This document shows, piece after piece, positions 43,801 through 64,000 of a stretch of 64,000 nt of DNA (positions within the stretch are counted from its first letter, which is position 1; every line of letters starts with the position of its first letter). The position numbers and the translations under genes were made by a program. The stretch is taken from contig NC_049994.1 of NCBI RefSeq assembly GCF_000003815.2, positions 2,841,464-2,905,463 on the forward strand, given 5' to 3'. The notes beneath the pieces are model-generated. The model had not been told where the DNA came from. It searched no databases and saw only the letters and a list, made by a program, of their open reading frames with translations. The DNA is from Branchiostoma floridae. Lineage: Eukaryota; Chordata; Leptocardii; Amphioxiformes; Branchiostomatidae.

Positions 43801-46494
43801 GATTGTACATTGTTACAATTTGTTTATGATATCCTTTATGACAAAAATTTTGTCACTCATGTTTCATCTAACCTCCCTTTAGAAAATTGGAATCTACATA
43901 GGATGACATCCATTGAATTTACTTGCTGTGGCCTTAATTAAGTGCAATAAGGCATAACCTGTCCTTGGTGCTGAATAAGCCTTCCAATGTCATACATGTT
44001 CAATACATGCAAATACAGTCACTTCAAACATTTACCTGTTGTGACGGAGTCACTGCAATAGTTTTTGGCATACCCAAGGCTAACTGCGCATGAGCAGAGA
44101 AGAGGGGGTCAGGAGACAGAGAGGTTGGCAGTGTGAAGTCCTGTTATGTAGATTTAGAGGTTTCATGCATTAAAAGAGCAACATCGGAACAACAGCGTCG
44201 GTCTATCTTGTGACACCTGTACATTTCAAACCTATAATTCTAAACCCAACTGCAAAGCTGTGTAATTGTCATGTGTGTTCTTGTTTAGAAAGTTTAGATC
44301 CTGTGTTAAATGAAGTACAGCCAAAAGGATGAAATAATGCCAGGATTTCCCCACCCCTGTTCTAATGGATAGGTCCAATCTGTGAGCTGCTATTAAGAGG
44401 TCAAATTAAGGTGAAAGATGGTAAAGGTCACAGTTTTTTTTTCAGATTCTATAAAAAATACACCTAGCAGTAAAATTGGTACTTTATGATCAAGTTTTGC
44501 CAAGGAAAGCAAGTTATTAAAAATAAGTGAATGTTTTTTGAGGGTATGCACCTTGCTCAGAACAAAATCAATCCCTCAAAATGTTGTCTTTCAACATTTT
44601 TTTTCTAAATCCAAGCACCAACTATTTGACCTTATGCGACCATGAACTATTTGTTAATATCGCTACAATTTCACCCAGTTTTTGCAACCTAGAACATCAC
44701 CAAAAGACTATATTTTTACTGAAGTCACAAAACCCACTTATTTTGCAAGGTGTGTGACAGTTCATTAACCACTGCCTTCTAAGAAGAAGTCAAATCCAAT
44801 AATAAGATGCAACTTCAATTGATTAGACATTAGTGCTATGTACTACATTGTATTTTGTGTCCCTCGAGAATGTTCCTGCAATTAGCCTTTGGGCATGATT
44901 TTGCAAATAAACTTGTTATTATAATATTCATGATTGCTGTTGTCGGATACATTGCTTGTGCTTGACCTGTACAGGTGAGGGAGAGGTGGATAGAACAGCA
45001 GAGAACGGGACCATCGCTGCCATCGTGATTGTCCTTGCTGCACTTCTGCTAGCTGTGGTAGGGGTCGCTGCTTTCTTCTATCGTCGGCACCGGTATGTAT
45101 CAAATCTCTACAACTCAGATTCTTTATTTCTTTGTTTGTTTGTATTTTAGCCTTCTTTCCTTCCATAACAACTGTGGTAGTTTTCAGCCTCTAAATGCCT
45201 ACATAAAAGAGGTGCATATTATAAGGAGTCATCATGATCTTTGTAAACTAGGGTAATGCCTCTTAGCTGTTTCTTTTCAGATTGCACTTTGGATGCTCTT
45301 ATAGATACATGTATACTGAAAGTATTTGAGTGAGGGTAAAGATAATAAGAGCCAAATTTAATCATATATTGGCATCTGAAATATTTTGTTAAATATTACC
45401 CATTGAAGATTTTCAATTTCTAGGAGTAGAGCCCTTCTTACTGGAGTTCAAACATACCTGGTTCTATGTAACGTTACATTTCTTTTAAACCTCGCCAGAA
45501 TAGAGGTTGAAACTGATAAACAGTAACAAGACTGGTCCATATCTTATGGTTTATTGGTCCCATCTACAAGCGAAGTTTTATTCACGGGCCTCCCATTTTA
45601 TCATTCAAACCCCTTTTTTGTGAGCAAAGCATGCCACTGTCAAAATATCAGTCTTAGCCTTAGCTTTGGCAATCCTACTCACAGTGGGGCTAGTAACGCT
45701 AGTTAACCTTTATCCGTAGGGTAGCCTATATCCGTTGCTTTTAAAAACATTTTATTTTGTCATACCAAGTCGACGGACAGAGGCTTCAAACTGCAATACT
45801 TGCAAAATATGTACAATTTGAAATCATGCATTGTAAGTCGACTTGATATCCGTACGTAGTACCCTGTTCTCGAACACAACGGATAAAGGTTACCCGGCGT
45901 ATACAGGTGAACTAGCGTTACCAATCGATTGATATTCTGTCAAAAAGACATGTATTCTATATGTATCCATGAGATTTTGTTATTTTTGCCCTTGGAACTT
46001 TCAAATGTATGTTAAATCTAAATTCCTTTTTTTTGTATAGGAGTAAGTTGAGGATGGATCACGCTCGAAGTATATACGGAGTTCGCAACAGTCAAAACTC
46101 CACCCTGAACAACCTCTCGGAGCGCCAACCAACACAGGCATTCTCAAACAACATCTATGACAACCCCTGCTTCGAAGGGAACCCAACCCGACCGCAACAA
46201 TCGCCCGCAACGTTGCAGGATCTCGCGGCGGCTAACAAAGCACCTCCGTTGCCTAACCGCCCTCCCTCCCTACCAAAAGTCGGGAACGAAAACCCACAAC
46301 TTAATAGAGCTTGCAAACCAAGTAACGAACTAGTTGTTGGAAACTTGAACAAACAGGAGAACCACTATGAAGTGTGTGGTCCTGGGGTAAGCTCTAAGGG
46401 AAATTCAAGTGAATCCAGTAAAGACGAATATGGATACGAGAAGCCTGTAAACACATTTGATCCAAGTATCTATGATGATATTATGAAGGATTGA
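31837..46494 (+). CDS. EMI-EGF-SEA single-pass membrane protein
   Basis: Predicted cell-surface protein. Exons: 31837-31907, 33926-33970, 34382-34504, 35204-35343, 40137-40382, 41012-41101, 41575-41702, 42876-43116, 44975-45092, 46041-46494, giving 551 residues without the doubtful exon at 36,611. Signal peptide 1-22 (LFGLLLVTEA). EMI-type Cys domain about 25-95 (NCGFWGWNRC, then YRTSYRTEY). EGF 102-124 (CYHGNC…CACDDGYTGSTC). Two calcium-type EGFs within 127-208 (DEDEC, NECLDNNGGC). Thr/Ser linker 209-238, likely O-glycosylated. SEA domain about 239-355 with the autocleavage-type GSVI at 306-309. TM about 374-396 followed by YRRHR. The 150-residue tail carries NPCF, YEVC, YGYEKP and IYDDI, possible adaptor sites. 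One intron uses a GC donor. I know no named orthologue with this order; mucin-like EGF/SEA proteins share only the latter part. Confidence 0.8.
32055..32396. mobile_element. GGGTGCACC repeat element, orientation 1
   Basis: Runs from 'ctcgaaattcatttttggga' to '…gcacccagtattttgagccctg', full of 'gggtgcacc' blocks. It is the reverse complement of the element at 34,012-34,312. The two lie in inverted orientation in introns on either side of exon 2 of the EMI/EGF gene. Confidence 0.75.
32419..32785. mobile_element. GGCCACACCAATT MITE, copy 1
   Basis: Left 'ggccacaccaattcagtttc' then 'ttggttcac'; right 'gtgaaccaagaaattaaatt' then 'ggtgtggcc'. TIRs are about 30 bases. The interior is nearly identical to the copy at 37,685-38,053, for example 'ttaccactcagcaaattttc'. 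Both lie in introns of the EMI/EGF gene, and the high similarity points to recent activity. Non-coding. Confidence 0.85.
33050..33267. mobile_element. CGGATAAAGGT MITE, copy 2
   Basis: Left 'ctagttcacctgtatttgca' and 'gggtaacctatatccgtg'; right 'cataggttaccccgtggata' and 'aaggtaaaccagcatt'. The middle carries the inverted 'aattgcaatatttcgaa' pair seen in other copies. Confidence 0.8.
34012..34312. mobile_element. GGGTGCACC repeat element, orientation 2
   Basis: Begins 'cagggctcgaaatactgggt' and ends 'atgaatttcgagccctg'. CATGG flanks both sides, possibly a short target duplication. It is the inverted mate of 32,055-32,396. The CAGGGCTCGAAAT ends tie it to the CAGGG-ended group in the zinc-transporter introns. 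Confidence 0.8.
34541..34911. mobile_element. GGCC-TTGATT MITE, copy 3
   Basis: Left 'ttaggccatgttgatttaat' with 'acggatgac'; right 'gttgtcatccatataataaa' with 'tcaacacggc'. It starts 36 bases after the GC splice donor of the EMI exon. Confidence 0.75.
36003..36543. mobile_element. GGCC-type MITE, copy 4 (CAGCAAGTAAATTT variant)
   Basis: Left 'aaggccacagcaagtaaatt' with 'tatggatgacatc'; right 'gatgtcatccataaaattta' with 'cttgctgtggcc'. TIRs are about 35 bases, with the same 'ggatgacatc' core as the TTGATT copies but a different outer arm. It ends 67 bases before the 36,611 EGF exon. Confidence 0.8.
36611..36680 (+). pseudogene. Half calcium-binding EGF exon, probably broken
   Basis: After a good 'ttcctcacag' acceptor the phase-1 frame reads IDECTTQNPDCEQKC, then VNTPGSYR, the first half of a calcium-binding EGF domain. 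It then runs at once into the 74-bp tandem array and a stop. The 'CxCxxGYxL…C' half is missing. The only donor-like site (ag|gtgttt) would give phase 2, which does not join the next exon. Flanking exons are both phase 1, so skipping it keeps the frame. Confidence 0.65.
36685..37060. repeat. Tandem array, five 74-bp units
   Basis: Five near-identical units start at 36685, 36759, 36833, 36907 and 36981, each containing 'ctctctatggaaaatgttgc' and 'catgagacatacagagca'. A partial sixth starts at 37,055. The very low divergence implies a recent expansion. The first unit touches the end of the broken EGF exon. Confidence 0.95.
37120..37585. mobile_element. AGGGGCATTCC (TTAA) MITE, left-truncated copy
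   Basis: The right end 'gtggagtggaatgcccct' followed by TTAA, and an interior block 'cgctgagcacaccgagaagg', match the full copy at 38,168-38,685. The left terminus is missing next to the 74-bp array. Confidence 0.7.
37685..38053. mobile_element. GGCCACACCAATT MITE, copy 2
   Basis: Full-length mate of 32,419-32,785 in the same orientation, with TIRs 'caccaatttaatttcttggt' and 'accaagaaattaaattggtg'. It directly abuts copy 5 of the GGCC-TTGATT family, sharing 'ggcctaaggcc' at the junction. Confidence 0.85.
38053..38890. mobile_element. GGCC-TTGATT MITE copy 5, interrupted
   Basis: The left part (38053-38163) begins 'aggccaggttgattagatta' with 'tagatgacatc'. Homology to copy 3 resumes after 38,690 at 'gtggtcaggagggttgaac'. 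A TTAA-targeted element sits between, so this is a nested insertion. The far end is unclear. Confidence 0.6.
38168..38685. mobile_element. piggyBac-like MITE with TTAA duplication
   Basis: The ends 'aggggcattccactcc' and 'ggagtggaatgcccct' are perfect inverted repeats, flanked on each side by TTAA (38164-38167 and 38686-38689). TTAA duplication is diagnostic of piggyBac-type targeting. At 518 bp with no transposase it is non-autonomous. It is inserted in the GGCC-TTGATT copy. Confidence 0.85.
38990..39710. repeat. Modular repeat with open frames on both strands
   Basis: At least three tandem, diverged modules carry 'ggtaggtgtgtagcggtt', 'aaggtcaagttcgataatgg' and 'ataactcgagaac'. Plus- and minus-strand frames of about 100-150 codons cross them, as in related copies elsewhere in the window. 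The protein repeats are low-quality and match nothing I know. I treat this as a dispersed repeat, not a gene. Confidence 0.55.
40455..40480. repeat. TG microsatellite
   Basis: A short (TG)n run after the EGF2-3 exon. Confidence 0.8.
40728..40923. mobile_element. CGGATAAAGGT MITE, degraded copy 3
   Basis: 'gggtaacctatatctgtttt' at the left and a weak 'ggttacatcttaagtgaaaa' at the right; the middle 'ctgcaatattttgaaagtac' matches. An older copy than the rest. Confidence 0.6.
42031..42556. mobile_element. Foldback element with about 90-bp arms
   Basis: The left arm (42031-42117) contains 'ctcagggttgacatcgcggc', 'aaagcctaacgatatc' and 'gccagggtatttgggtattt'. The right arm (42467-42556) is its reverse complement with few changes. 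The roughly 350-base centre repeats 'ctcattaatattca' at each edge. Non-coding, within the SEA-exon intron of the EMI/EGF gene. A Pol III B-box-like 'ggattcgaacccc' lies just outside at 42,575. Confidence 0.85.
43273..43499. mobile_element. MITE with TACTGTAAA ends
   Basis: 'tactgtaaaatgtatttaag' and 'ttcgcgg' at the left are mirrored by 'ccgcgaacatttctgcattt' and 'acagta' at the right. The interior carries additional inverted 'gcggtggttttaaatccgcg' blocks. 227 bp, non-coding. Confidence 0.75.
43526..44040. repeat. Tandem duplication of about 300 bp
   Basis: The segment starting 'atgatatcctttatgacaaa' and ending 'cttcaaacatttac' occurs at about 43,528-43,740 and again at about 43,836-44,038. 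Both include a right-end fragment of the GGCC-type MITE ('ccattgaatttacttgctgt'). The duplication happened after that MITE inserted. Confidence 0.75.
45692..45921. mobile_element. CGGATAAAGGT MITE, copy 4
   Basis: Has the best-preserved outer ends: 'gtaacgctagttaaccttta' at the left and 'aggtgaactagcgttac' at the right. Inner blocks are 'gggtagcctatatccgttg' and 'aacggataaaggttacc'. It lies in the last intron of the EMI/EGF gene. Confidence 0.8.
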
Positions 46495-46715
46495 TTTGGT
46501 TCCTGTAAAATTCATTTATTTTTGCAGTAAATTTTGATACGTCCTCTTTACCAAAAATTCCTGACAAAGGGAAATGTATATGTATCTTAATGGTACTACA
46601 GAGTATTGATTCAACCTAAAGAAATAAATGCCTTTTCCCCTGTTCCTTAAAAATGCATCCACACAAAAATAAATGTGTTTTAACATGTTTTTTTTTGTAG
46701 TTATTGCTTTGAGCC

Positions 46716-46721
46716 AATAAA
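46716..46721 (+). terminator. Poly(A) signal of EMI/EGF gene
   Basis: AATAAA about 220 bases after the stop; earlier AATAAA motifs lie at 46,623 and about 46,668. Which is used cannot be told. Confidence 0.5.
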
Positions 46722-46729
46722 AGTTTTAT

Positions 46730-47640
46730 TATGCTGAAATAGACTATGTAGACCTGGACTGCTTAAGATTTAAGAAATGTACATAGATAAGTATAGATCT
46801 TTTAAAGGTTACTTACTTTACTTTTGTCCATTTTCAACATACGTCTTTGAATAGAATATATATTGAAATGAATCTAAGCTATGATTAGTAATGAAGATTG
46901 ATCTGAAATGGTACACATATAGCAGTATGCTTTTTATTGAATTGCATATAACAGCATGCCATGTAGCAGTAACATTGCTTTTTATCTGATAGCCCAATTC
47001 TTAATATTATGTTATCCATAGCAGTATGCTTTTTTATTGAATGGCTAATTAGCATATAGCAGTATGTTTTTTATTGGATGGCTCAGGGTGAACACCATGA
47101 TCAGCTTTTGTATATATTATCAGACAACATATTGTTGTTGCAAGTGGCAAAACATTTTTATTGAAATTTTATATTTTCTATCTGTATTAATATTGATATT
47201 ATGTCAAACCGTAAACTAGAACTTTTGATGGCTACCAACACTGTTCCTTATTAAGCATTTAATATTTTATTGCATCACTAAGTGAAACCAGCTTATTCCT
47301 TAGTCTTAAGCTATTGGAAGATTGAATACCTTAAAACCAATTTTTTTCCGGTAACTACATCATTGTTTACCTTATAGGTGGGCTGCTTAAGATATTATAA
47401 TGCATATATGTATGCTATCAGTTGGCTTTTTTCTCAACTTGAATATTGTATTCAGAATGAATTAAAGTTTGCATTCCTTACCATGATGCTATTAGTGATT
47501 ATTTTTCTTAAATACCACTAAGAAAAAACACAATTTAATAGATTAGCAGCTAACTTCAACCGTGAATAGTTTCATCAGGTTGGTAAGATTTTATGCAAAT
47601 GGATGGTTGCCTTACTAGCGTACTTCTACCAGTATAATGA
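46730..47640. other. Intergenic, left part of duplicated segment
   Basis: AT-rich, no gene. A short motif like 'tagcagtatgctttttattg' recurs three to four times at 46,920-47,075. Parts at 47,340-47,640 match 56,460-57,020. Confidence 0.5.
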
Positions 47641-47642
47641 TA

Positions 47643-48221
47643 CGAGGGGCGTTCAAGAAGTAATGTCCCTGACCCATTTCCCAAAAGAAGGAGATTAATA
47701 AAACTTGGTGCAGTTATTAGTCTTTCTCTTCATAGGAACCACCCAGAGTTATGCATTTCTACCATCGTTTGATGCAGCTCTGGACACCGTTTTTGTAGGA
47801 CACCCCAGGTTGGTCCTCCAACAGATGCCTCATCAATGGCACAAGAGGGACGACCAGGTCTGGGAGCTGTTTCCACAGACTTCCGGCCATGTTTGAACTC
47901 ACAATGCCAGCGTTTTACAAGGTCATATGATGGGGAATCATCACCATAAGTTTCTTTTATTTCATCAGAAGTCTCATTTGGTATGCGTCATTTCAAATAC
48001 AAAAACTGGATCAATGCGCGACACTCAACTGGCTCCATTTCACACCTGGTCCATTTCACACCTGACTCAGTTCAAACACCTTTAAATCAAAAACCAAAAT
48101 TAGTTCAGAGCTGTTTTTTGCAACATAAGCCATAGAGATATGAATCATTACATATGCAAAATTTCATCTAGATCAGACAACTAGAAGTGGGTCAGGGATA
48201 TTACTTCTTGAACGCCCCTCG
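47643..48221 (-). mobile_element. Mariner-derived element, copy A
   Basis: TIRs 'cgaggggcgttcaagaagta' and 'ttcttgaacgcccctcg', with TA on both sides. At 579 bp it is an internally deleted derivative. The minus strand retains decayed sequence equivalent to the transposase N-terminal region that is clearer in copy B. The probable empty site is preserved in the paralogous segment near 57,016. Confidence 0.85.
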
Positions 48222-48521
48222 TATTTGATCTAAGGCTACAACACAATTTATTGTCCCTTTGGGTCATTTCTTGTCATGTAAACCATATTCAAAGAAGAAA
48301 AGATTTTTCTTCTGAAATCAGACAAAAATTAACAAGCGTCCTCCATAAATTTTAACATGCTGTGGTCTAAGAATTATTCTTACTGTAGATTGCCCAATGA
48401 CAAATTTTGTCACAAATGCTAAAGTTATGGGTTTTGGAAAATTGAATTTCGTGTTAGACATTAGAGTCTAAGTTTGCTTCTTTAATTGATAGAATCTCCT
48501 TAGATCAGTCACGGTATTCAT

Positions 48522-48780
48522 TTACGCCTCCTTCACTTTTATTCCCGGGGTAATGTCCTATAGCCGTTGTCTTTTAAAATCGTTATTTAGGGATATCAAG
48601 TATCCGGATGTTGGGCTATTTTTAAAGCAACTGCAATATTTTGAAAATATTGCAATTTGAAACCACCGTCTTTGCGGACTCATCCCTGCCTGGTTCTGAA
48701 TGTTGATTTTACGAACAACGGATAAAGGTTCCCCTGCGGATAAAGGTTACCCTACGGATAAAGGTGAAGCTAAGCGTTGT
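48522..48780. mobile_element. CGGATAAAGGT MITE, copy 5
   Basis: Left 'cacttttattcccggggtaa'; right end with the terminal 'cggataaaggt' block repeated three times. It ends only a few bases from the stop codon of the first cysteine-rich gene, so it makes up most of that gene's likely 3' UTR. On the minus strand it contains AATAAA at 48,538-48,543. Confidence 0.75.
48538..48543 (-). terminator. Candidate poly(A) signal within MITE
   Basis: AATAAA on the minus strand, about 243 bases after the stop of the first cysteine-rich gene. It arises from a base change in the MITE end and is shared by the paralogous copy at 57,528. Confidence 0.4.
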
Positions 48781-48785
48781 AAGTT

Positions 48786-51700
48786 TCAACCACGGATGGA
48801 AGGGTTACAGATGTCTCCCTTCTTGTCCGCCTCTTGCTGGGTTAGGCACGTCCCCGTACGGAAGTCATCCTCGTTGGCACAACACACCAAGTCTCCCTGG
48901 CATGCGCAGTCGTCCTCGCTTGCGTGTGGCAGTCCGGTGTCACATGGTTGATTATGGCCTCCACAACCTGTTAGGTTAAAGGTCAATATCAATCTCTCTA
49001 TTAAATGTTTGCTTTAACTTAAGTCAGACAGTGGTAGTATAGCACTGTCTTGAAGACAGTAACCTACAGATTGTATTTGCAATATCTATCTATAAAACTA
49101 TCTATGATATCCTTCCACAGATTACCGACGAAAAATAATGTTGCATTGTTTTTTCGATTGTCCCTGCTTTACCTTAGATTTGCCGTTCACATCATAAACC
49201 ATTTTTAACGATACGAAACTTGCTAGGAGGATAACTTTTTTTCTCAAATAAGTGCGGACCAGTGCGGACTGTCTTGACAAAAACACCCCTGCAGTTCCGA
49301 AATTAAATGTTAGGGGGCTGAAACCTGCCACACTTTTTTTATGACGCTTCAAGCTATCTACCAGCCAAATGTCAAGATCATATCACGTCCGGGACAAGAC
49401 ATCCATAGAAAAAACTGCTATGATAGAATATTCTCCTTGATCATGCAAATAATCTCCTATTTTGCATAATCAATATTTCATTTTTTTACATCATCGTCTA
49501 AGGTATCTACATACCAAAGATCATTTGTTCCCTCCGTTGTTCCCTTCTTGAGTCATCCGTTTCAGAAGTTTTTGACAAAAATACCCCTGCTACCCCAATA
49601 CTAGCTGCTAGGGGGTCCAAACTTATGTAACTTAGTCCTGAGCACAAGAGCTATCTAAAACCCCCAAATCGTGACCATAACTTGTTCAGAACATGAGATA
49701 GCAAACCCGGAATTTGTGCTGCAGTACCAAGGGAAGCCGCTAGGGGGCCCAAAATCTAATCATTTCCAGCTTTCATCGCACCCAACCAACACCAAGTATG
49801 AAACCAATTCACTCAGCCGTTCTTGAGTTATCTTGTTGACAGACAGACAGACAGACAAACGCTGTTTAAGATACAACCTCCATGACATTTAATTGAGGTA
49901 AAAATGGATAAAGGTTACCCCACGGATAAAGGCTATCTAGCGTTATATAAAGAAATCAATTCTTACAGGCTGGCACGCATCCACAGGTGTAGAACTCGGC
50001 ATTGCAGCCACCGCAGTAGTTAGCCACACATTGAGCATCAGGGGTGCCAGGGCAGGTTTTCCCCTCACAGGGGTCAACCAAGCAGTTGTATACCGGCTGT
50101 TCTTTAGGACACACTGGTAGTACGTGGTGTTGGGAAAAATTAATAAAACTCAAGTCAGAAAATCATGAACAGTGTATGCTATTCATAACATGGGACACTT
50201 TACAAAATGGATACTTTAATAGGTTTTTGAATTCAAATGCTAATTTGTCATCAAAGGAAGACATGTACCCTGGTGGTACTTGGTGTTGGGAAAAATTGAT
50301 AAAACTCAAGTCAGACATTCATAAACTAAAGACAGTGGATGCTAACTGAAACATGTGTACAAAATGGATACTTAGGTTTTTGAATTCAAATGCTAATTTG
50401 TCATCAAAGGAAGACATGTTATCTAAGAACAAAAAATGAGGAATTTGTTATTCATCACTTTATACTTTAAGTCAAGGTTCCTTGCCACTTAGATTTCAAA
50501 TTGAATGCAGGCTTTTTTTCCGTACTTCCGCATAGGTTTTGGGGTCTGAAATAATTGTGTCATCTATATATTGTTTCGCCCTGCAGGAAAATGTGGTTCT
50601 TTTAAAAGACTAATAAAATCAGATTTTGTCATTAGACATCTAGCCTTTTTATTAGACTTAATACGGTAAACGACCGTGATTTTTTGACATTTCAATAAGT
50701 ATGCTGTATTCTTAGATTGTATTGTAGTATTATTTTGATGGTATTTATGTGAAACATTCCAACTATTCCACAGTATCTTTCTGTTTTCCACCTTTTTAAG
50801 GTAAAAGTACAAATTAGAACAAACCTTCGGGGACACAGCCCGCAACATCAAACTTCTTCTCGTTGCATTTCGTTGGTTTCTTCCCTAAAGGTAAACATAA
50901 CATTATGTTTTTTTTTTCTATTTGCTTTTTGGACAGACAAGGACAATGTGGCACTGCACTCAAGTTTTGTAACTTATATCAACAGTGCCACATACACGGT
51001 ACCCATTTTTACACCTGGGTGAAGTGAGGAAAGTCGTGTCAAGTGCCTTTCCCAAGGGCACAACGTCAAGGGCATTGCGGGGATCGAACTCAGAACCTCT
51101 AGATTTCGAGCAGAACGCTCTACCAGTTACGCCACGCCCGACGCCACATCATGTTTGGAAAAAAGGAATCTGAATGTTTGCTAATCCAATGTATGCCTAA
51201 TGTTTGGTTCAGATTTCAAAACCAGGGTCCGGCCAGACTGTATGTGGCTGGAAAATTAAAAAGTGAGTATACACACAAGTTATGCTCAAGACTAGGGGTG
51301 GGTATATTCTAGCCTCTACCAAGCTTCGTGGTTTGGTGGTCTAATTGTCGAAATTGGTCAAATAGAGTGAATAGTACGCTAGGGGAGTCAGCCGGCCGAG
51401 TAGGGACATTCTCCAAACCACACTTGAAAAATGGTCCTACTCGGCCGGCTCACTCCCCTAGCGTACGGTGACTCTATTTGTCCAATTTCGACAATTAGAC
51501 CATCAAACCACGGAGCCTGGTAGAGGCTAGGTATATTAGTACAGAAAAATGAAGTACAGGTCCATTTGTGATCCAAATGATCACGTTCAATTAGGCTTGA
51601 ACTTGGACCTGATTTTCTGAACCTGGACCTAAGAAAGGGCGATACTCGAAACAATGTTCCCTTTCTCTAGATATTGTTTTAATGGTGTATCTGACTCCCA

Positions 51701-52328
51701 CTGGCGTTTTGAAATCATATCGTCTTCTAAACAGGGCTAACTATCACCTAGCGGCATGCTTGACTCACTCGGTAGAAACTTGGTAGAAATGACTTTTTAC
51801 TCTACTCACCCCTCTTGGTTCAGTAACGTGTTTTATATTGGCGACATGTCAGCAGATTTCAATAACAAAGACGACTTTGAAATCAATGTCCTTTACATAC
51901 CTGATCGCATCAACATTGTTCTCTGTATAATTCCTGTTTGCGAAATATCTAGCTATCTTAATAATGTTTTCCATGATTTCGCTGACAATGTCACCAACAA
52001 CGAATGGTTAGAAATCAAAGTCTTTGATAATCAATTGCAAATGTATCTACTATTATTTTACTCCGAATATCTTCTTCTATTTGTACTACGTAACTCTAGG
52101 ACTAACTGTGATGACCTTGGATGACAAAATGTGATGACCTATCGTTGGACGACGAGAAAAAACATTGCCCCGGTCTATTGGATTATCCCAGCTTTAGATT
52201 CAGGCTTATCGAGACATCACGAACAATTTCAACGGCATAGAAGACTTGGTGAACACATTCTACATACTTGCGGAATCAGCCACTGTCACAATGACGATGA
52301 TCACGACGATCTTGGCAAAAAGCTTCAT
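48786..52328 (-). CDS. Secreted cysteine-rich protein A
   Basis: Small secreted protein. Exons on the minus strand: 52268-52328, 50825-50884, 49967-50113, 48786-48967. All are phase-1 joins with GT-AG sites, giving 149 residues. Signal peptide (MKLFAKIVVIIVIVTVADSA) is encoded alone by exon 1. Exon 2 is a lysine-rich linker with two Cys. Exon 3 carries the module C51-LVDP-C56, C61-PGTPDA, C69, NYCGGC (72-77) and CGCVPAC. Exon 4 has a second Cys module (CACQGDLVCC) resembling compact disulfide folds, and ends KKGDICNPSIRG. I recognise the NYCGGC-type module as recurring in invertebrate secreted proteins but cannot name a function. The orphan exon at 53,448 is an alternative first exon. Confidence 0.78.
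49190..49860. repeat. Inverted copy of modular repeat, in intron 3 of gene A
   Basis: Reverse-complement copies of the 'ccctagcggct / ataactcgagaac' modules, for example 'gttcttgagttatcttgttg' and 'gctagggggtccaaactta'. Long-decayed. Confidence 0.55.
49902..49946. mobile_element. Solo end of CGGATAAAGGT MITE
   Basis: Only the right end is present, 'ggataaaggttaccccacgg' plus 'ataaaggctatctagcgtta'. It lies 20 bases from exon 3 of gene A. Confidence 0.6.
50114..50420. repeat. Tandem duplication beside gene A exon 3
   Basis: About 150 bases ('ggtgttgggaaaaattaata' to 'tcaaaggaagacatgt') are present twice, at about 50,126-50,262 and 50,282-50,420. The duplicated block begins at the exon's acceptor region ('ctggtagtacgtggtg' and 'ctggtggtacttggtg'). 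Confidence 0.8.
50960..51144 (-). repeat. tRNA-derived SINE
   Basis: On the minus strand the head reads 'tggcgtaactggtagagcg' (A box) and, about 35 bases later, 'gagttcgatcccc' (B box), spaced as in a tRNA. A conserved body follows, including 'gttgtgcccttgggaaaggc' and 'ctcacttcacccaggtgt'. The arrangement fits a SINE2/tRNA family common in deuterostomes; a true tRNA is excluded by the imperfect stems. Lies in intron 1 of gene A. Confidence 0.75.
51309..51530. mobile_element. Near-perfect foldback palindrome
   Basis: Arms of about 100 bases: 'tagcctctaccaagcttcgt', 'ggtctaattgtcgaaattgg' and 'tcagccggccgagtaggga' are each mirrored on the other side, around a roughly 20-base centre near 51,420. 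It would extrude as a long hairpin. Non-coding. Confidence 0.9.
51836..52230. repeat. Copies of the first-intron module
   Basis: Two diverged copies ('cgacatgtcagcagatttca' at 51,843 and 'agacatcacgaacaatttca' at about 52,211) of a segment that borders each signal-peptide exon; compare 53,389, 60,900, 61,797, 61,998, 62,985 and 63,168. It lies just 3' (minus strand) of gene A exon 1. Confidence 0.6.
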
Positions 52329-52420
52329 CTTCCTCTTCGTAAGTTCGAACTTAAGATGTTTAAGGGACCTAAAATGTACCGTCGCCCAAGACAGCTTCCA
52401 CAAAATAACAGTGACGAGTA

Positions 52421-52800
52421 AGTGTGTACGTCTACGAGGTACTGTGTACGTGTCTTGTTCCGGGTTTTTGTTTTTGTATCAACAAATATGGCTGTCTAAA
52501 CTTGGAAGAGCTTTTGTTTTGGTGTGGTTGTACTGCTATGTTTCACTAACTAAGATGGCCGCGACTAATAGATATCATTCTTTTTGCCAAATACATTTAG
52601 AGCAACATTAATCTAACAGCATTGTTTTTGTACTAGGCTTTCAAAGAAAAGAAGATAGTTTCTGCAGAATTTGACATTGACCCGTCCCCATAAGGAAATG
52701 GTTTCTTCTTCAAAAACAGATCCTGTATGAGCGCTTATCAAAATATATATGACGTACGAGGGACAAATGTCAAAACGTTTTTGAGCCAAAGTTCACGATA
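52421..52800 (-). promoter_or_regulatory. 5' flanking module of gene A
   Basis: Contains the ancestral one-to-two units of 'gtgtacgtgtacgagtaa', a 'gtatcaacaaatatggc' block, and 'gagcgcttatcaaaatatat'. The same order occurs before gene B (63,380-63,770) and, without a signal exon, at 61,090-61,800. Conservation between copies suggests it holds the promoter; no TATA box is evident. Confidence 0.5.
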
Positions 52801-53447: not shown

Positions 53448-53508
53448 CTCCCGAAACGGCCACTGCGACCATAAGGATGATCACGAAGGTTGTGGCGAAA
53501 CGTTTCAT
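53448..53508 (-). other. Orphan signal-peptide exon
   Basis: The minus strand encodes MKRFATTFVIILMVAVAVSG in 61 bases and ends with a phase-1 donor (ggag|gtttgt), exactly like the first exons of genes A and B. No exons 2-4 of its own lie between it and 54,230. It is either an alternative first exon of gene A, which is frame-compatible, or the remnant of a lost third gene. Confidence 0.7.
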
Positions 53509-53749
53509 CTTCGTCTTCCTGAAATCGACGGTAAGTTCTCAGAAGAAACCTGGACACTTCTACAAAGACAGCGGTAACAAATTGTTGTTGACGAGCGTGT
53601 TTCGTTGTCAATTTGGTATTACAGAAGGTCGTATGATGTTTGGATATTATAATATTGACATGTCTCACCAAGTAGCTCAAAGATTAAAATTTCTCAACAA
53701 GTAGCAATCAAAGATCACTTCAATTGACATTTTTTTCGAGATGCATATC

Positions 53750-54235
53750 GATCTGTATACAATACTCGTTGTTAGCACTTTGGAGAAAATAGTTCTTCGA
53801 TGATATAGCATAGATCTTCACCCACAAGGGAGTGGATCGTTCCTAATATGACACTTACCAGATCAGGTCTAACCGCTTATCAAGATATCACTGACGTATA
53901 CGAAGGACAAATGTCACACGTGTTTTTGAGACGTCAACTAAGGACAAAGTTGCATTTTTAAGGGTGTAAGACTGTATTATTTCAACAAGTAGCTCAAAGA
54001 TCACTGCAATGATTTGCTTCGAGATAAACTTAAAACTAGACGCTATACACGTTGGCAGCATTTAGCAGAAGATAGTTTCTCAACGATATAACGTAAGATT
54101 ATCACCTATCAGTGAATGGGTTGTTCTTGATATGACATTTACCAGATGAGTTTTGACCGCTTATCAAGATATCATTGACGTACGAAGGACAAATACCAGA
54201 GGTGTTTTAAGACGTCAACTGAGGACAAAGATTCA
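53750..54235. repeat. Two extra copies of the 5' flanking module
   Basis: 'accgcttatcaagatatcac' plus 'tgacgtatacgaaggacaaa', and again 'accgcttatcaagatatcat' plus 'tgacgtacgaaggacaaat', occur at about 53,870 and 54,165. Both match 52,730-52,770. These are remnants of further duplication rounds. Confidence 0.65.
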
Positions 54236-54360
54236 ACTGAATTGAGTAAAGACGAGTTTGGATACGAGCAACCTGTAAAACTTTTGATCCAAGTATCTCT
54301 GATCATATTATGAAGGATCGATTGGGTTACTATAAAATGCATTCATTTTTGCTGCAGTTC
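54230..54360 (+). pseudogene. Duplicated last-exon fragment of EMI/EGF gene
   Basis: 'gtaaagacgagtttggatac', 'gatccaagtatctctgatca' and 'atgaaggatcgattgggtta' match 46,418-46,510: the last roughly 25 codons, stop region and start of the 3' UTR of the EMI/EGF/SEA gene. One base is lost in the 'gtaaaacttttgatcc' stretch, so the frame is broken. It marks the left edge of the segmental duplication carrying gene B. Confidence 0.88.
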
Positions 54361-54454
54361 TATTTCTAAGATCACCTCTCTGCCGCAAGGTCATGAATCT
54401 GAACTGTGCAAGAACAAAATACATAGAATTTATATGATGAGTTACGAGGGGCGT

Positions 54455-55023
54455 TCGATAAGTAATGCCCCTGACCCATTTCCAAGCGCAGGAGATTAAT
54501 GAAACTTGGCACAGTTATTAGTCTTTCTCTTCATAGGAACCACCCAGAGTTATGAATTTCTCCCATCGTTTGATGCAGCTCTGGACACCGTTTTTGTAGA
54601 ACACCCCAAGTTGGTCCTCATACAGATGCCTCATCAATGGCAGAAGAGGGACGACCAGGCATGGGAGCTGTTTCCACAGACTTCCAGCCATGTTTGAATT
54701 CAGGATGCCAGCATTTTACAAGGTCATATGATTGGGCATCATCACCATAAGTTTCTTTCATTTCATCAAAAGTCTCATTTAGTGTGCGTCTTTTCAAATA
54801 CAAAAACCGGATCACATGCGCGACACTCAACTGGCCCTTTTTCACACCTGGTCCATTTCACAACTGACTCAGTTCAAACACCAGTAAATCAGAAACCACA
54901 ATTAGTTCAGAGCTGGTTTTTCCAACATAACTTATAGAGATATGAATCATTACACATACAAAGTTTCATCTAGATCAGACAGCTGGAAATGGGTCGGGGA
55001 CATTACTTATTGAACGCCCCTCG
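54455..55023 (-). mobile_element. Mariner-derived element, copy B
   Basis: TIRs 'cgaggggcgttcgataagta' and 'ttattgaacgcccctcg', flanked by TA. The minus strand is open at 54,618-54,845 and reads like a mariner transposase N-terminal helix-turn-helix (HVIRFLYLKRRTLNETFDEM, then YGDDAQSYDLVKCW and a GRPSS linker). The catalytic DDD domain is deleted. It sits at a different place from copy A, so it is a separate insertion. Confidence 0.88.
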
Positions 55024-55029
55024 TAGTTA

Positions 55030-57510
55030 ATTATTACCTGCTTGAAAAAAGCAGGTATTGATTCTAGTAGGGATGTTTGTGATTCCGGACCGATATCTTT
55101 AGAACCTCTGGATGGATTGTGATCAAGTTTGCTATGGGGATAGATATTGTGAGCCATTGTGCCATAGCGCGCATTAGAAGTTTACTGCAGTTTTGTGGTT
55201 CGTTTTTAGAAACATATTTACACCCCTTTTTTTACTTTTTTGAGTGGTCCCAGTAACTGATAGCTAGTTGGGCAATTAGGCACCATTGTGTGCGGGGTGA
55301 ATCACTATATACACATTAGGGGATATGAAGCCGATGGCTGTAGAGATCCACAACTAGTAGAAAGAGTAACTGTGACCATCCCTGTCACCTCTGTATGGGA
55401 TGAACCAATATATACACGTGCAGGTGTAACAATAGGAAATAAAATGAAATGGTGAGGTCACTAGAAAGGTGTAGTTTTGGATCTCACCATTTACCATAGG
55501 TAGATATATAAGAGCAATGATGGAGTATTTTTGCCAAACGTCAAACCATATCAACCCCATAACACACCATACGCACCATCACAAAACAAAATATTTCATG
55601 CAGGTTTGAGTTTTCAGACTCTTGTTTGAGAATGTAGCATTATCCTTAGACATTCAGAACAAGTCAAAGTCCTTCCCGCACCAAATAGTACATAGGGCGG
55701 CGCCCATTTGCATTTCTGTACCCCTGCGCCACACAAGTTTTTAGATCTTCACTATGTGTAAATGTCAATTTAGGCTTAGCCAAACAATGTTGTGTTTTAG
55801 GTAACCTCCTAAAAGCGTTGGTAAATTGGGATTCTCTGAATCTAATTTTTTTGTTTGGTTTAGATTTCAGATCTAGACCGAAGTGACCCAGCAAATTTGG
55901 GTTAATGTTGTAAAACGTAAATGTATATTGATATATAATCATACAGATATGAAAACTTACAAATATAAATGTACAGGTACAAGTATATTTAATTTAGTAA
56001 AGCAAGCAAAAGAATTACTGTAACATTATATTTACTGGAAATTCTTACATTAACTGTATGAAGCATAAATTATCACAGATTTCAGTTAATTAAATAATAT
56101 GCCTTTTTTCCCGTGGTTGACCCCCCGCCCCAAGGCTACGGTCATTGCTCTGGTTAATACTAATGTTGATAACTTAGCTGGAAACAAACACATTCTTTGC
56201 TGGGTCTACCATAAAGTTGAAGGAAGGAGAATAAGGAACGTAAGACTCATAATATGCCTTAACAAGTCCATTTTATTATTCTGTTTAGCATACAATTGTA
56301 ATGAAGGTCTGTTTTTAACATTGTTTAAATTTGAACCACTGAAGTTTTACAATGCTCAAATAGAGTATACAGTCAAACCTGCATTAGCGGCCACCTTTGC
56401 ATAGCGACCACCTGGCTTTGCGGTCACTTTTTGCCGGTCCCTTGGAAATCAGCTTTGTTCTGCAACTACGTAATTGTTTACCTTATAATTCGTCTGCTTA
56501 ATACATATATGTATACGATCAGGAAGTGATATCTTCAGCTAAGATATGGTATTAAGAATGCATTAAAGTTTGCATTACTGACCATGATGTTAAATTAAGT
56601 AAGTTGAGTATGGTAGATTTTCAGAGTAAATGTGGTTTTTCCTCATTTTCTGCATAAATTATGATAATGAGTAAAAGCTACTGACACCAAAACTTGTCAA
56701 AATATTTTTCATAGGTTAGTGAAACAGTAAAGACATAGAAATGACAAAATAAGCCAGCAGAAATATGTCTATGAGCAAAACAAAATGGGGTCAAAAATGA
56801 CCCCATACGGTCAGATTGGTCGTAAAAATGTAACGGTCGGATGAGGGTTAAGTGTTTTTCTAAAATACTATCAAGAAGAAACTAATAGATTCGCTTCAAC
56901 CATCAATAGTTTCATCAGGTTTGTAAATGATTTGATTTAAAAGAAGATTGCATTCGGCAACCTTATACATGTACATGGTTACCTTGCTAGTGTCATTTCT
57001 ACCAGCACAATCATCATGCTTCAACGCAACATATTTCCCTTTTAGTACCTTTTCGTCATGTTGACCATGTCTGACTGAAGACGAAAAACTCTTTTTATGT
57101 CATTTTTTCTAAATCAGACTAAAATTACTGAACGTCTGACGTTATTAATAAACTTGTTATGGAATAAGAATTTTTCCGACTAAACGTAGCGTAACAGTGG
57201 GGTTCAAGGACTGCTTAACTGACCTTGCTAAAAGGTTTGATGCCTTTTGGCGTAACGATTCAGTGTCTCGGATTGCGATCTGGTGGCCCGGATTCGAATC
57301 CCGGGAGCCAGAATATTGTTTCCGTCTGTTTCTACTCCTTTCTCTCAGTAGATTGCTCAAGACTGAATGACAAAGACGAAAATTACAAGTTTGGGAAAGT
57401 TCAATTTTTGTGCTGAAAATTAGAGCCTATAGCTAGCTTTGCTTCTAAGTGTAATGGAATCAGCTGGGATATCAATACACTAGGAACGGTCCATTAGCGG
57501 CATCCATTAA
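55030..57510. other. Intergenic part of duplicated segment
   Basis: No gene is seen. 56,460-57,020 matches 47,340-47,640, and 57,340-57,470 matches 48,380-48,500. The intervening roughly 1.4 kb (55,030-56,450) has no counterpart in the first copy that I can find. Confidence 0.5.
57230..57345 (+). repeat. Possible tRNA-derived SINE fragment
   Basis: 'cggattcgaatcccgggagc' is a strong B box, with 'ttttggcgtaacgatt' about 50 bases before it. Related to the minus-strand copy at 5150-5240. Confidence 0.4.
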
Positions 57511-57512
57511 CT

Positions 57513-57722
57513 AACGACCCCTTCACCTTTATTCGCGGGGTACCTTATATCCGTTGTTTGTAAAAACAGGGTATTGAGGGATATCTAGTTGGACTATTTT
57601 CGAAATATCTGCAATGTTTTCTTTAAATGTCACCGTCTGTTCGGGCTTGATATCCGTAGAAACCAATTTTAAGAAGAACGGATATTGGTTACCCCTCGGA
57701 TAAAGGTGAACTAGCGTTACCC
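57513..57722. mobile_element. CGGATAAAGGT MITE, copy 6
   Basis: Left 'ccttcacctttattcgcggg', right 'ccctcggataaaggtgaact' and 'agcgttac'. It occupies the same position relative to gene B as copy 5 does to gene A, so it predates their duplication. It holds AATAAA (minus) at 57,528-57,533. Confidence 0.8.
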
Positions 57723-57732
57723 ATCGTAATTT

Positions 57733-60700
57733 TCAACCACGAATTGGAGGGATGCCTCCCAGATCATCCACCTCCTGCTGGGTCAGACATGTCCCCTTAG
57801 CGACGTAACGTACGTTGCCGGGGAAACACAGTAAGCCCCTCTGGCAGGTGCAGTCGTCCTCTCTTGCGATTGGTAGGCCTGTGTCACATGGTTGTCCATG
57901 GGCTCCACAACCTGTTCGGTCAAAGGTCAGTGTCGGTTTATTGTTCGTTTGGTATAGGCATTCTTGAACTAGTTGAATCGTAATTTCACAGTTTTTTTAC
58001 ACAAAAAGTTTGCACAGTATCAGTCTTTGTCAAGGAATGAACAATCCACTGCTGTCGTGACGTCACGTTATGCAGATAGAACACGTGACTCACGTGAGCA
58101 ATGGATTATAGGTTGAGAAAGTCTTGACAAAGACTGATGCTGTGCAGTCGAAAATTTGGGTGAGTCCGATTTTTGTCTTGGAAATTACAGTTCAATTATT
58201 TCAAGAATGACTTCTACCAACACAGATGAACTTTCAAGGTAAAGGTACATTGTTGCATCCACATACTGACTGTAAGAAACACGTAATATCCGTGGTATAG
58301 TCAAATATTGGAGTATTTAAACTGCAATTTTTTTTCGAAATATGCAGTTTATAACAACTGTACGTTTATCGACTTGATATTCGTAAATACTAGTACTATA
58401 CTGAAAATGACCGATTCACCGAGAACCAGTCAAAGCCACCTAGAACATTTTCCTTTCTCGCGCCGCCTTCAGCATCCCTTCTCTCTACATACGTACTATT
58501 CATTGTCATAGTAAAATGAAATGTTTGAGGTAGTTTTTACGGTGTAGATTAGGGGTGGGTACCGGTCCAGGAAATCCAGGTCCGGTTCAGGTCCAGACGA
58601 TCAGGTCAAGGTCCGGACCTGAACCTGGACCTGATTCAGTATGACTCATACTAATGGTACATTTCACTACAAAGAAATCTGTTTGGTGGAGTATGAGACT
58701 CACACTAGCGTTTTGAAATCCAACAACGCTAACTGCACCTGTACGATTGGCTGTAAAACTTGGTAGAAATTACTATAAAATCTTCTCTACTTCACTCTTG
58801 TTTTGTACCGGTACACTGTAACCCAGCCCTAGCGGAAATACAGGAGGACCCCTTCTCCAGTTATTCAATCAGTACTTTCGAAAGCGATAATGCAGGCGTG
58901 GACGTCCTTAAATATTTGCCAATTAGACGCATAGTACAACTGTATATACTGTAATGGTGGTATCTCATTGGACTTGGGCCACCGGTGCGGCACTGCGCAT
59001 GCGGGGTTCGGAAGATTACCCAACGAATTTAAGAGAAAGGAGAACGAATTTTCTTACGTTTTGTATATTTTGTTGTCTTCTAAGTCATAGTTTTACGTAT
59101 TGAGAAATATCAAAATTCTTCTTTTAAAAACGTCGAAAATGACACAACGGTGCTGCAGTGAACGAACCCCGCAGTGCCGCACCGGTGCTCCAAGTGCAGT
59201 GCACTTTAAGCCAGACCCTGAGGCGTCGCCCAAAAGTCTTTACTCACAAGCCAGTTCGCCGTCGCTGTTGAAGAAGTCGGCATGGCAGCCGCCACAGTAG
59301 TTGGCCACACATTCAGCATCCGGGGTGCCAGGACAGGTGGTCACCGTACAGGGGTCAACCACGCAGTTGACCAGTGGCTGACCATTAGGGCACCCTGAGT
59401 GTACGTCATAAAATGGGAAGTTTGATTCTCAGCCACAAATGATAGACAGTAACGCCTAGTTCACCTTTATCCGCGGGGTAACGTATATCAGTTGTTTTAA
59501 AAGAAACAAGTAATTTAGTTATCAAGTAATCGAGTGGAAACGACCATCCGATAACTTGAAATCTCTGCATATAGATACCCTGTTTTTAAAACAGCGAATA
59601 TAGGATAACCCGCGGATAAAGGTGAACTAGAGTTAGGTATTATCAGAAACACCTGACTCCAGAAAATGTTTTCAACGGCGCGATTTATGCTATATTGTTA
59701 GTCGCCTATCGTTCAATGGCGCATTTGCTTCATTCTGGATTAAAAGACTAAATAAAAACATTTAGGATTGAGAACGAGTAATGACGTTATTCTATTCATT
59801 TGCTGACATTCTGATATTTGTGGCGCATTCTTATATAAACTTTAATGCGAGTTTTTTTTTTGTGTTGTTCTTTTCCGGAGAACGTTCAAGAATCATGTGT
59901 GCCTTCCTTGGTAACTTATCCAGCATTTAACTCTTCCCGCTAATAAAGTAATGCAAGTTAAAACGAACCGTCGTTGTCACAACAGCCCCTGCACCTATTC
60001 TTCTTAAACTTCTTCCTCTTCTTTCCTGAAGTTAAACATGAAATCATGTTTGAAAAGTAATTTTCTGAGATGTATATCAAGGTACGTTCTCCACAGAATT
60101 CTGTAGTATAGTGGAGAGACTGGCAAAAATAACCCAACGGTAAGATGATTATTTTTCGGAAAACCTAATCTTATTTTCTGACAAGTTGATCGTAATGCAA
60201 GAAGTAAACAGCACTATTTTCATGAAAATAGGCTCATTCTGCAATGTCAGAGAGTGTCAAATACTCCAAGAATAAGAGCGATTCCTTTTGTTTTGTAGTA
60301 GTGAAATGACTATTGTTTTGATCATCGCCCATTCACAAGTTTTTGCAGACAATGCTGACTAAAGTGACGCCGCTTGCCACCAAAAACTGTGAATTTTCAT
60401 GAATTTTAGCAAACCTAACCAGGAAAATAGGAAGAAACACACTAAATCTTAAAAGTAGTATTATATATAGTAGTACTGGGCCTGGAGTATTGTATAGGGC
60501 CGCCATTGTTCCATCCTCTGTTATATAGTATATAAAAAATAAACCAAAGTTCATTATGACTTTCACTATGATATTAAGTGAAAGCCAGCATATTACCCAC
60601 AAATTGTAAAATGACATCATTGAAATGGATTTATTCCATAGTACATGAATTTACTCCCCACACAGATTAGCACGTTAGGTTAGGGTGACTTACATATAGA

Positions 60701-63288
60701 TAACTTGTTGTTCGCCTGTACAAGAAAAAAATTTCAAATCAACATAATCTTTGAATTCTTTTAACAATTTGCTAAACCGCCTCCTATAGCTTCCTGGCAC
60801 AAAAAGAATTCATAAACTATCAACAAAATACCAACTGAATCTCTGACTACATGTTCAAAATGGCCCATGAACATTTTTTTTTGGGGGGGGGGGCGGTAGA
60901 CACGTCACCAACAGTTTTAAAAACAAAGAAGGCTAAAAAATCAACATCGCTGTGACTATGAGTGCGAAGTTTTTGGTGGAAAGACTTCTATTCACCTCTG
61001 TAATTTCGCTCGTACGGTATTCAACCGACTGTAAGAGTACCAAATTGAAAGACAGTCTCATTGATATATAATAGTGACGAAAGGGTGTGTACTACGTGTA
61101 CCAGTAAGATGTACGTGTACGAGTTAAGTGTGTACGTGTACGAGTAAGTGTGTACGTGCACGTCGAGTAAGTGTCTACGTGTACGAGTAAGCGTGCACGT
61201 GTACGAGTAAGTTCGTACGTGTACGAGTAAGTGTCTACGTGTACGAGTAAGCGTGCACGTGTACGAGTAAGTTCGTACGTGTACGAGTAAGTGTGTACGT
61301 GTACGAGTAAGTTCGTACGTGTACGAGTAAGTGTGTACGTGTACGAGTAAGTGCGTACGCGTACGAGTAAGTGCGTACGTGTACGAGTAAGTGTGTACGT
61401 GTACGAGTACGAGTAAGTGTGTACGTGTACGAGTAAGTGTGTACGTGTACGAGTAAGTGTGTACGTGTACGAGTAAGCGTGTACGTGTACGAGTAAGTTC
61501 GTACGTGTACGTGTAAATGCGTACGTGTACGAGTAAGTGTGTACGTGTACGAGTAAGTGTGTACGTGTACGAGTAAGTGTGTACTTGTACGAGTAAGTGT
61601 GTACGTGTATGTGTACGAATAAGTGCGTACGTGTAATATTCCGGGTTGTTGTCTTTTTTGTATCAACGATGGTTGTCCAGACAGGGAAAAGCTGTTTGTC
61701 GGTTAAACTGGCATGTTTCACTGAGTAGGACGATCGGGATTAATAAATATTTTTCCTAGTTTTCAGAGCAAAATTAGATTAGCCACATCATAGGTTATTA
61801 ATGTTGGCGACGCGCCATTTCAATGACAAAGACGGCTTAAAAATCCTGCCACAAAACCGCTAGCATTGTTCTCCTTATTCTTCCAGTTTTCGATATATCT
61901 ACCTCTAAAACTGCATATTTATGCTATCCTTTTAACAGGACGAAGAAAGAATACTGCCCAGGATTTTTTGTTTTCCCTTGTTACATTTGAATGTTGGCGA
62001 CACGTCAGCGAATTTCAACAACACAGAAGCCCTAGAAATCGATATGTTCTTCGTACCTGCGTGCATTGATATTTTTTGTCTATATTCTTCTAGTTTTAAA
62101 ATTTTCTATCTCTTAAACCGGCTGGTTTCTTGCCCAGGGCAAGAACAATAAGGAAGTGCTCCCATTGTGACTTGTCCAGTAGTTTGAATGGTGGATAGAC
62201 CCCCATAACAACATAAACTCATAAACATCCCAGACTGTCTACCAGCTAGAAACAATGGTCAGAGACAGATTAGCATATAACTGGTCACAGATTCAAATAC
62301 TGTAGTGGTTCAAAGTACTGGTTTTCATAGGAACTTTATCAAATCATACAGAACAAAGTTACACAATGCAAGGTTTCAATTAGATAAGATCATGTGATAT
62401 TAAGACAATACTATCTGCAGTTCTTGAAAGAACATCTTTTTTCAAATCTCAAATCAGCCCTGTCAAAATTGTATTAGAGCATCTATTTGCATCCACATTT
62501 GTAAACCTGAAAATGTTTTCCTTACAGCTGAATTAGCTCTCATGAGTTGTGTGTGTAGAACCATAACTTGCAATACTTCATTTATAGTAGGAAACCAGTA
62601 TAGTCACCATATAATGCTCTGTAGAACTGTACACATAACTGCCAGCCAATGTCTCACACTAAAGAGCAACCCAGTGTTTTTCATTACTTCATATTATTCT
62701 GGGCTAAGTTTTCTTCAAGCTAACTTCTTTATGAATAGCTTACTTCAATTTCTTATCTTTTGTCTCTAGATTTCAAACATGATTTGCAGAGTAACTTGTA
62801 CTTGGTAAACTTACTCAGCCAGGCCACCACTGATGTACACTGCATGGGTGCCTGTAGCATACTGAAGGGCATAGTTTATATTATCTGCTCTTTATATAGT
62901 TTTACCGGCCCCTTTAAACTGCATATTTATTATGTCATTACACAACAATGAGGTTAGAATATTGTCATTGTTTTTCGAATTTTCCCTGCTTGTCAACAAC
63001 AAAGGCTTGGAAATCAATATCCTCTTCATACTTGCTTGTATTCGCTGTGATGCTCTTGTTTTCAATCCAAAGCCGTATATTTGTGCTATCCTTTCTAAAC
63101 GACAAGGAAAGAATGTTGCCTTTAAGTTGTTTTTTACGGATTGTCCCTGCTTTGCAATATTATATTGACGACACGTCAGTGAATTTCAACAACAATGAGG
63201 GCTTTAAAATCAATGTTTTCTACATACCTGCCGAAACAGCCACTGCAATAATGACGATGACCACGAAGACTTTGACGAAAAGCTTCAT
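57733..63288 (-). CDS. Secreted cysteine-rich protein B, paralogue of A
   Basis: Minus-strand exons 63228-63288, 59969-60025, 59248-59394 and 57733-57911 join in phase 1 with GT-AG sites to 147 residues. Exons 1 and 3 have the same length as in gene A (61 and 147 bases). Signal peptide MKLFVKVFVVIVIIAVAVSA. Exon 2 is strongly basic (KKRKKFKKNRCRGCC). Exon 3 keeps CVVDPC, CPGTPDAEC and NYCGGC but ends FFNSDGELAC instead of CGCVPAC. Exon 4 keeps CxxHGQPCDTGL and CTCQRG, but the CC pair of A is CF and the last Cys is gone (…GGIPPIRG). The Cys loss suggests changed disulfide pairing, so functional divergence is likely. Intron 1 (3.2 kb) holds the minisatellite and ghost modules. Confidence 0.78.
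59449..59637. mobile_element. CGGATAAAGGT MITE, copy 7
   Basis: 'gtaacgcctagttcaccttt' with 'gcggggtaacgtatatc', mirrored by 'gataacccgcggataaaggt' with 'gaactag'. It lies 55 bases 5' of exon 3 of gene B. Confidence 0.8.
60890..63225. repeat. Ghost copies of first-intron/promoter modules
   Basis: Segments like 'gacacgtcagtgaatttcaa' with 'caacaa…gaaatcaatgt' recur at about 60,900, 61,797, 61,998, 62,985 and 63,168. A promoter-type block ('tattccgggttgttgtc', 'gtatcaacgatggttgtcc') is at 61,640-61,760. None of the middle copies keeps a signal-peptide exon. Confidence 0.65.
61094..61640. repeat. 18-bp minisatellite, about 30 units
   Basis: Unit 'gtgtacgtgtacgagtaa' with small variants (gtgcac, ttcgta) and one 6-base insertion. 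The 18-base period keeps all frames open, so minus-strand frames of 209 and 143 codons rich in TYSYTYTLTRTRT are artefacts. One-to-two-unit versions sit at the same place in the 52,421 and 63,378 modules, so it expanded in one duplicate. Confidence 0.95.
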
Positions 63289-63377
63289 CTTTCTCTGTAC
63301 CTTCGACCTTAAGGTGTTCAAGATACCTTAAATGTACCTGGGACCGTCACCAAATACAGCTTCAGAAAATAACCGAG

Positions 63378-63600
63378 TTAGTGTGTACGTGTACGAGAAA
63401 GCGTGTACGTGTCATGTTCCGTGTTATTGTTTTTGTATCAACAAATATGGCCGACTAAACTTGAAAAAGCTATTTCTTTGTACTGTAATCTTTTACCGAG
63501 TAAACTGACCACGATTAATAGATGTCTTTTTTTTTTATATTCTACAGCAACATTAACCTAAGAATATTATATGTTGTTAGCCTTTAAAAGAATATAGTTT
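63378..63600 (-). promoter_or_regulatory. 5' flanking module of gene B
   Basis: 'gtgtgtacgtgtacgagaaa', 'gtatcaacaaatatggccga' and 'acgattaatagatgtc' repeat the order found upstream of gene A. It begins 90 bases upstream of gene B's ATG and probably contains the promoter. Confidence 0.5.
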
Positions 63601-63616
63601 CTGACGTATAAATGTC

Positions 63617-63664
63617 ACTATGGGTACTGATCTACGTCACAATATGACGTAGATCAGTACCCAT
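63617..63664. repeat. Perfect short palindrome
   Basis: 'gggtactgatctacgtca' and 'tgacgtagatcagtaccc' form an inverted repeat with a loop of about five bases. The 'tgacgta' core resembles a CRE/ATF half-site on each arm. It lies within the flanking module of gene B and is absent from the gene A module. Confidence 0.85.
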
Positions 63665-63924: not shown

Positions 63925-64000
63925 AGCCGATGTAGGTGGCGCTTTTTTTGGCCACGTCTGGGATAATGTTCTCGCCGCAAAAGCGCCACCTACATCGGCT
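63925..64000. repeat. Inverted repeat at window edge
   Basis: 'agccgatgtaggtggcgc' (63925-63942) and its exact reverse complement at 63983-64000. This may be a small complete foldback or one end of an element that continues beyond the window. Confidence 0.8.

Follow-up and report, generated by a model that had tools for sequence, protein, structure and literature searches.

A single tandem duplication in Branchiostoma floridae probably copied a small cysteine-rich gene together with the end of its neighbour

According to the part of PMC9673378 that we drew on, tandem duplicates are commoner in Branchiostoma lanceolatum than in vertebrates, and small-scale tandem duplication in lancelets produces local tandem gene copies of the kind reported here. 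Partial duplication across adjacent genes is likewise a described outcome: in the cases given in the consulted part of PMC3449122, a partial or chimeric duplication ends inside an adjacent gene and leaves a gene fragment, as here. We analyzed a 64,000-base stretch of the Branchiostoma floridae genome (NC_049994.1, positions 2,841,464 to 2,905,463; hereafter the window) in which two small paralogous genes, A and B, lie in collinear units, the second beginning with a broken piece of the EGF-domain gene that neighbours gene A. Whereas PMC9673378, in the part used, treats duplicates genome-wide, at this locus the junction, the passenger fragment and the order of events can be read. Unlike in the cases from PMC3449122, the fragment is convergent with the gene and consists only of an exon end, and no chimeric gene was seen. 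No literature on this locus was found by title or abstract start, with no search made by gene name or by D1, the domain described below.

Gene models built from sequence alone place two minus-strand paralogues in the window, A (48,786-52,328) and B (57,733-63,288), with four coding exons apiece.

52268..52328, minus strand: A exon 1, signal-peptide-like, phase-1 donor
50825..50884, minus strand: A exon 2, linker; homology with B exon 2 not significant
49967..50113, minus strand: A exon 3, Cys-rich domain named D1
48786..48967, minus strand: A exon 4, Cys-rich domain named D2, carries the stop
63228..63288, minus strand: B exon 1, signal-peptide-like
59969..60025, minus strand: B exon 2
59248..59394, minus strand: B exon 3 (D1)
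57733..57911, minus strand: B exon 4 (D2), carries the stop

Exon lengths are 61+60+147+182 nucleotides (nt) in A and 61+57+147+179 nt in B. All three joins are in phase 1 in each gene and all six introns have GT/AG borders; the shared four-exon, phase-1 layout given in a preliminary description of this DNA is thus borne out by the models. The frames are open over 149 residues in A and 147 in B, and the two proteins are 60% identical. Exon 1 of both genes codes for a hydrophobic N-terminus, which can be read directly from the sequence, and the likeliest products are secreted extracellular proteins with disulphide bonds, perhaps with an inhibitor-like role. In 40,000 bases that start at 63,537 and run to the right, past the window's end, the peptides of exons 3 and 4 found no match with an expectation value (E) below 0.05; we therefore count two full genes. 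The term "gene array" used earlier is generous for two full genes plus two signal-exon modules.

The two genes are embedded in units that repeat the same series of elements.

46403..54230: duplicated unit 1, comprising the neighbour's end, gene A, its promoter side and the A′ module; from collinear blocks, with the A′/B′ match stopping at the junction
54231..64000, on to extended ~66,335 (G000:C16:2907798): duplicated unit 2, with gene B; from collinear blocks and the A′/B′ match
47344..47642: intergenic blocks of unit 1, common with 56,455-56,981; block test
56455..57266: intergenic blocks of unit 2; block test

Self-comparison gave same-strand matches in series, with order preserved. Using borders picked after the matches were known, we tested 12 blocks (the neighbour exon end, three intergenic blocks, a dispersed element, exons 4, 3, 2 and 1, an intron-1 block, the promoter side and an upstream block). 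For each, the controls were 200 shuffles and chunks of the same size from window positions 1-46,000. For 11 blocks, in one order and orientation, no shuffle and no background chunk reached the observed score. The dot-plot, in which the preliminary description took the lack of a collinear diagonal as the point that would tell against it, does contain one, and the observation is confirmed. Blocks proposed to match between 47,340-47,640 and 56,460-57,020 resolve into two pairs (47,344-47,491 with 56,455-56,592; 47,496-47,642 with 56,849-56,981). The promoter-side block is identical at 252 of 306 bases. The intron-1 block (51,833-51,900) touches exon 1 in B and lies ~370 bases off in A, where that side is repeated. 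Because each model keeps three introns of the same phase, with the exon 3/4 and exon-1 joins inside aligned blocks, neither gene is a retrocopy of the other.

At its left end, unit 2 carries a remnant of the neighbouring gene.

46041..46494, plus strand: last coding exon, intact, of the EGF-domain neighbour, source of the fragment; open frame 45973-46494, EGF match upstream
54231..54433, plus strand: broken copy of the neighbour exon's end and 3′ untranslated region (UTR); one-base deletion, stop lost

An AG acceptor, identified by eye, immediately precedes the first base of the intact exon. The fragment corresponds to 46,403-46,610, with 106 of 123 bases identical in the core (86%) and 154 of 198 aligned once the UTR is included (78%); one base is deleted and the stop is missing from its right place. 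Such a copy had been proposed at 54,230-54,360, and its full extent is 54,231-54,433. We searched the 513,431,437-base genome with a 100-base probe from the intact neighbour tail, skipping very common words and scoring only the best candidates, and found two places only, the intact copy and the fragment (E up to 0.001). No second copy of the rest of the neighbour exon (46,041-46,402) is seen in 54,434-57,500, where 8 of 30 shuffles reach the score. The neighbour is transcribed convergently with gene A.

The far end of the unit is marked by an extra signal exon and its upstream repeats.

53448..53508, minus strand: A′, a further 61-nt exon resembling a signal-peptide exon, with an open frame and a GT donor in phase 1; its partner is B′ (extended 65,542-65,602)
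53694..54230: a pair of tandem repeats upstream of A′; the junction truncates the second, and the repeat runs on to the right of unit 2

The module containing A′ (53,391-54,230) recurs at 65,484-66,335 with 697 of 827 bases identical (84%). The upstream tandem repeat goes on rightwards beyond 66,335, resembling 53,950-53,997 at 37 of 48 bases (0 of 100 shuffles), while to the right of 54,230 the neighbour exon begins, and the homologies abut at 54,230/54,231. An old repeat continuing past one copy and a neighbour exon following the other are as tandem duplication predicts, with a new junction and an old far flank. The earlier claim that the unit can be traced end to end thus holds only once the DNA is extended ~2.3 kilobases (kb) past the window, except for inner stretches that do not align. 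Among the four signal-exon modules (A, A′, B and B′), 65 sites group AB|A′B′ against 4 and 3 for the alternatives (ultrafast bootstrap 100); hence the signal-exon module doubled before the whole unit was duplicated.

Mobile and dispersed elements add information on the order of events.

48516..48778: dispersed palindromic element just past the gene A stop; position same in unit 2
57506..57726: dispersed palindromic element just past the gene B stop; position same in unit 1
47643..48221: 579-base-pair (bp) mariner-type element with TA target duplications; site empty in unit 2; Mos1 helix-turn-helix match below cut-off
54445..55023: 579-bp mariner-type element with TA target duplications, a separate insertion; Mos1 helix-turn-helix match above cut-off

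Since the palindromic element lies just past both stops, it was most simply present before the unit duplicated. Unit 2 shows an empty site for the left mariner-type element, and the two such elements, identical at 525 of 578 bases, stand at differing positions, which indicates insertion after the duplication. The strongest diagonal of the dot-plot (47,633-48,229 with 54,433-55,031, 90%) was accordingly rejected as a part of the unit, being two TA-flanked insertions out of order. The dispersed palindromic element, with GGATAAAGGT-like ends, has copies in the window at 28676-28874, 33056-33266, 45693-45921, 48516-48778, 57506-57726 and 59448-59635.

Taken together, the collinear exons and intergenic blocks, the element past both stops and the abutting junction argue for a DNA-level duplication that carried the neighbour's end, and thereby support the earlier proposal that a segmental duplication dragged along the neighbour's last exon. 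We put at about 0.88 the probability that a single tandem duplication of an ancestral locus, passenger fragment included, explains the A/B pattern. That locus would have held one small secreted Cys-rich gene convergent with the EGF-domain gene; upstream of the Cys-rich gene would have lain a second, older signal-exon module and a short array of tandem repeats. One tandem duplication would have copied the stretch from within the neighbour's last exon (46,403) to within the upstream repeat array (54,230), the two ends being joined without long homology. The neighbour exon end would have been carried as a dead passenger and then decayed, and separate mariner-type insertions and other changes would later have blurred the copies. 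A tandem duplication whose junction shows no long homology and which includes a passenger fragment is a known kind of event.

Several observations weigh against so simple a history. Block identities span 70-82% (non-coding block divergence 18-30%), which leaves room for several events, and unit 2 is ~4 kb longer than unit 1. Exon 2 homology is not significant: its score was reached in 24 of 200 shuffles, in 13 of 807 background chunks and in 16% of 5000 shuffles of its peptide, so that exon 2 is matched solely by position, near-equal length and phase. The proposed comparison of introns gave a mixed outcome, with introns 1 and 2 scoring slightly over the best of 40 shuffles and intron 3 not above shuffles. 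Similarity between 46,611-47,342 and 55,026-56,455 is not above shuffles either. Finally, the case for an empty site in unit 1 opposite the right-hand mariner-type element is weak on one side, because the unit-2 flank (55,026-56,463) does not align above shuffles by itself.

Several separate local duplications, of the neighbour-exon scrap, the signal-exon modules and the gene body, could have built the same pattern, and the unequal block identities would suit them. The exon-1 side in particular has been duplicated repeatedly: seven places in 46-64 kb, itself included, outscore the best match of the first 46 kb when compared with the intron-1-side module of gene B. We nevertheless consider this history improbable, as the blocks hold one order, A′ meets the fragment exactly where B′ meets the continuing repeat, and the quartet sites divide 65:4:3.

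Somewhat less probable still is an origin through non-allelic homologous recombination, in the form of unequal crossing-over at repeats, or through a transposon. Repeats do abound in the region, and a tandem repeat contains one of the breaks, but 600-base stretches around the two breaks show no similarity beyond shuffles (20 of 100 reach the score). Breaks without mutual similarity speak against recombination between repeats and for end-joining or template switching, and we infer that one of these joined the ends. As to a transposon, the left mariner-type element, with its site empty in unit 2, and the different places of the two elements point to later arrival.

For exons 1, 3 and 4 of A and B, synonymous divergence (dS) is 0.51 and the ratio of nonsynonymous to synonymous divergence (dN/dS), a comparison suggested in the preliminary description, is 0.45 (bootstrap interval 0.25-0.80). 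Taking as outgroup the second D1 and the D2 of a relative on contig 19, chosen by us, we counted 18 residues unique to gene A and 6 unique to gene B (p 0.023). Both gene copies have stayed open under moderate constraint, with gene A evolving faster. The dS of ~0.5 and the non-coding divergence of 18-30% are far above the divergence between lancelet haplotypes. Given this, the differing transposon insertions and a right copy without the rest of the neighbour's last exon, it is scarcely credible that the assembly placed two divergent haplotypes end to end, even with the high lancelet heterozygosity that PMC9673378, in the part used, names as a problem in assembling duplicated genes.

A′ and B′ are each 61 nt long with an ATG and a phase-1 GT donor, and neither has a stop or an indel. 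A simple neutral simulation, resting on assumed branch lengths, gave 0.011 for both staying intact since the module doubling, which favours use as alternative first exons; older module pairs share 42-47 of the 61 exon bases (69-77%), whereas their intron sides agree at 57-63% and their promoter sides at 53-57%. The other way point the 0.08 obtained for both staying intact since the unit duplication and the comparison of A′ with B′, where the exon (48 of 61, 79%) is not better conserved than its flanks (83-84%). It is a tentative and rather doubtful suggestion that both gene copies have retained a pair of alternative first exons, with a separate promoter region and signal peptide for either exon, and that this pair predates the gene duplication and survived in both copies. 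If true, alternative first exons could let promoter choice set expression or secretion.

Further repeats lie in and around the two genes. Intron 2 of gene A contains a ~156-bp tandem repeat in two copies (50114-50419), adjoining exon 3, and an imperfect palindrome of ~220 bp, 85% self-complementary, lies at 51309-51530.

61093..61609: minisatellite in intron 1 of gene B, with 25.4 copies of a 20-bp unit; resembles gene A promoter-side sequence

This minisatellite is similar to promoter-side sequence at 52414-52453 and 63374-63412. The neighbour had been called an EMI/EGF/SEA gene. Its EGF matches stand, whereas the SEA match is sub-threshold (19.9 bits against a cut-off of 26.4) and the one frame picked as putative EMI (34,359-34,544) has no Pfam match at E up to 0.1, which leaves EMI a putative part of the label.

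With an E limit of 0.01, D1 occurs at 18 places spread over 8 contigs, a count that takes in A and B; the weakest of these matches is partial. It has conserved cysteine spacing and a CGGCxAxF-like motif. Scanning 17 members individually against Pfam gave four families with a best E of 0.0068 (IBR_1, two members), which we take as chance, and comparison with PDB sequences gave no match at E up to 1. On this evidence D1 is a candidate undescribed domain. Nor did the IGF-binding-protein N-terminal domain profile match: with an E limit of 1, gene A gave no Pfam family at all and gene B just two, both of them other families below cut-off (E 0.18 and 0.8), and B exon 4 alone gave one other (E 0.088). 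The model compared with the structure of that domain (2dsq_A) was of low confidence (predicted local distance difference test score, pLDDT, 66), and no Pfam match above cut-off was found in the A and B proteins.

The relative on contig 19 (C19:15,718,691-15,719,602 plus D2 downstream; L011 1501-2840) combines D1 and D2 as A and B do, its D2 being 62% identical to that of gene B over 55 residues. It lies elsewhere in the genome and differs in having the order D1-D1-D2, in contrast to the single D1 of A and B. Reading frames at 15 of the 18 D1 loci (L007, L008 and L024 left out), we selected 10 by eye as resembling known domains; these 10, at 8 loci, matched WAP, TIL, thyroglobulin-1, Kunitz or C-type lectin domains. 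This suggests an extracellular, inhibitor-rich setting for D1.

The locus can be read as a fossil of what was probably one tandem duplication, preserving its junction, a dead passenger exon, insertions shared and unshared between the copies, and a pair of open paralogues that evolve at unequal rates. A further outcome is D1, a Cys-rich candidate domain present at no fewer than 18 places in the genome and without a convincing match in Pfam or PDB.

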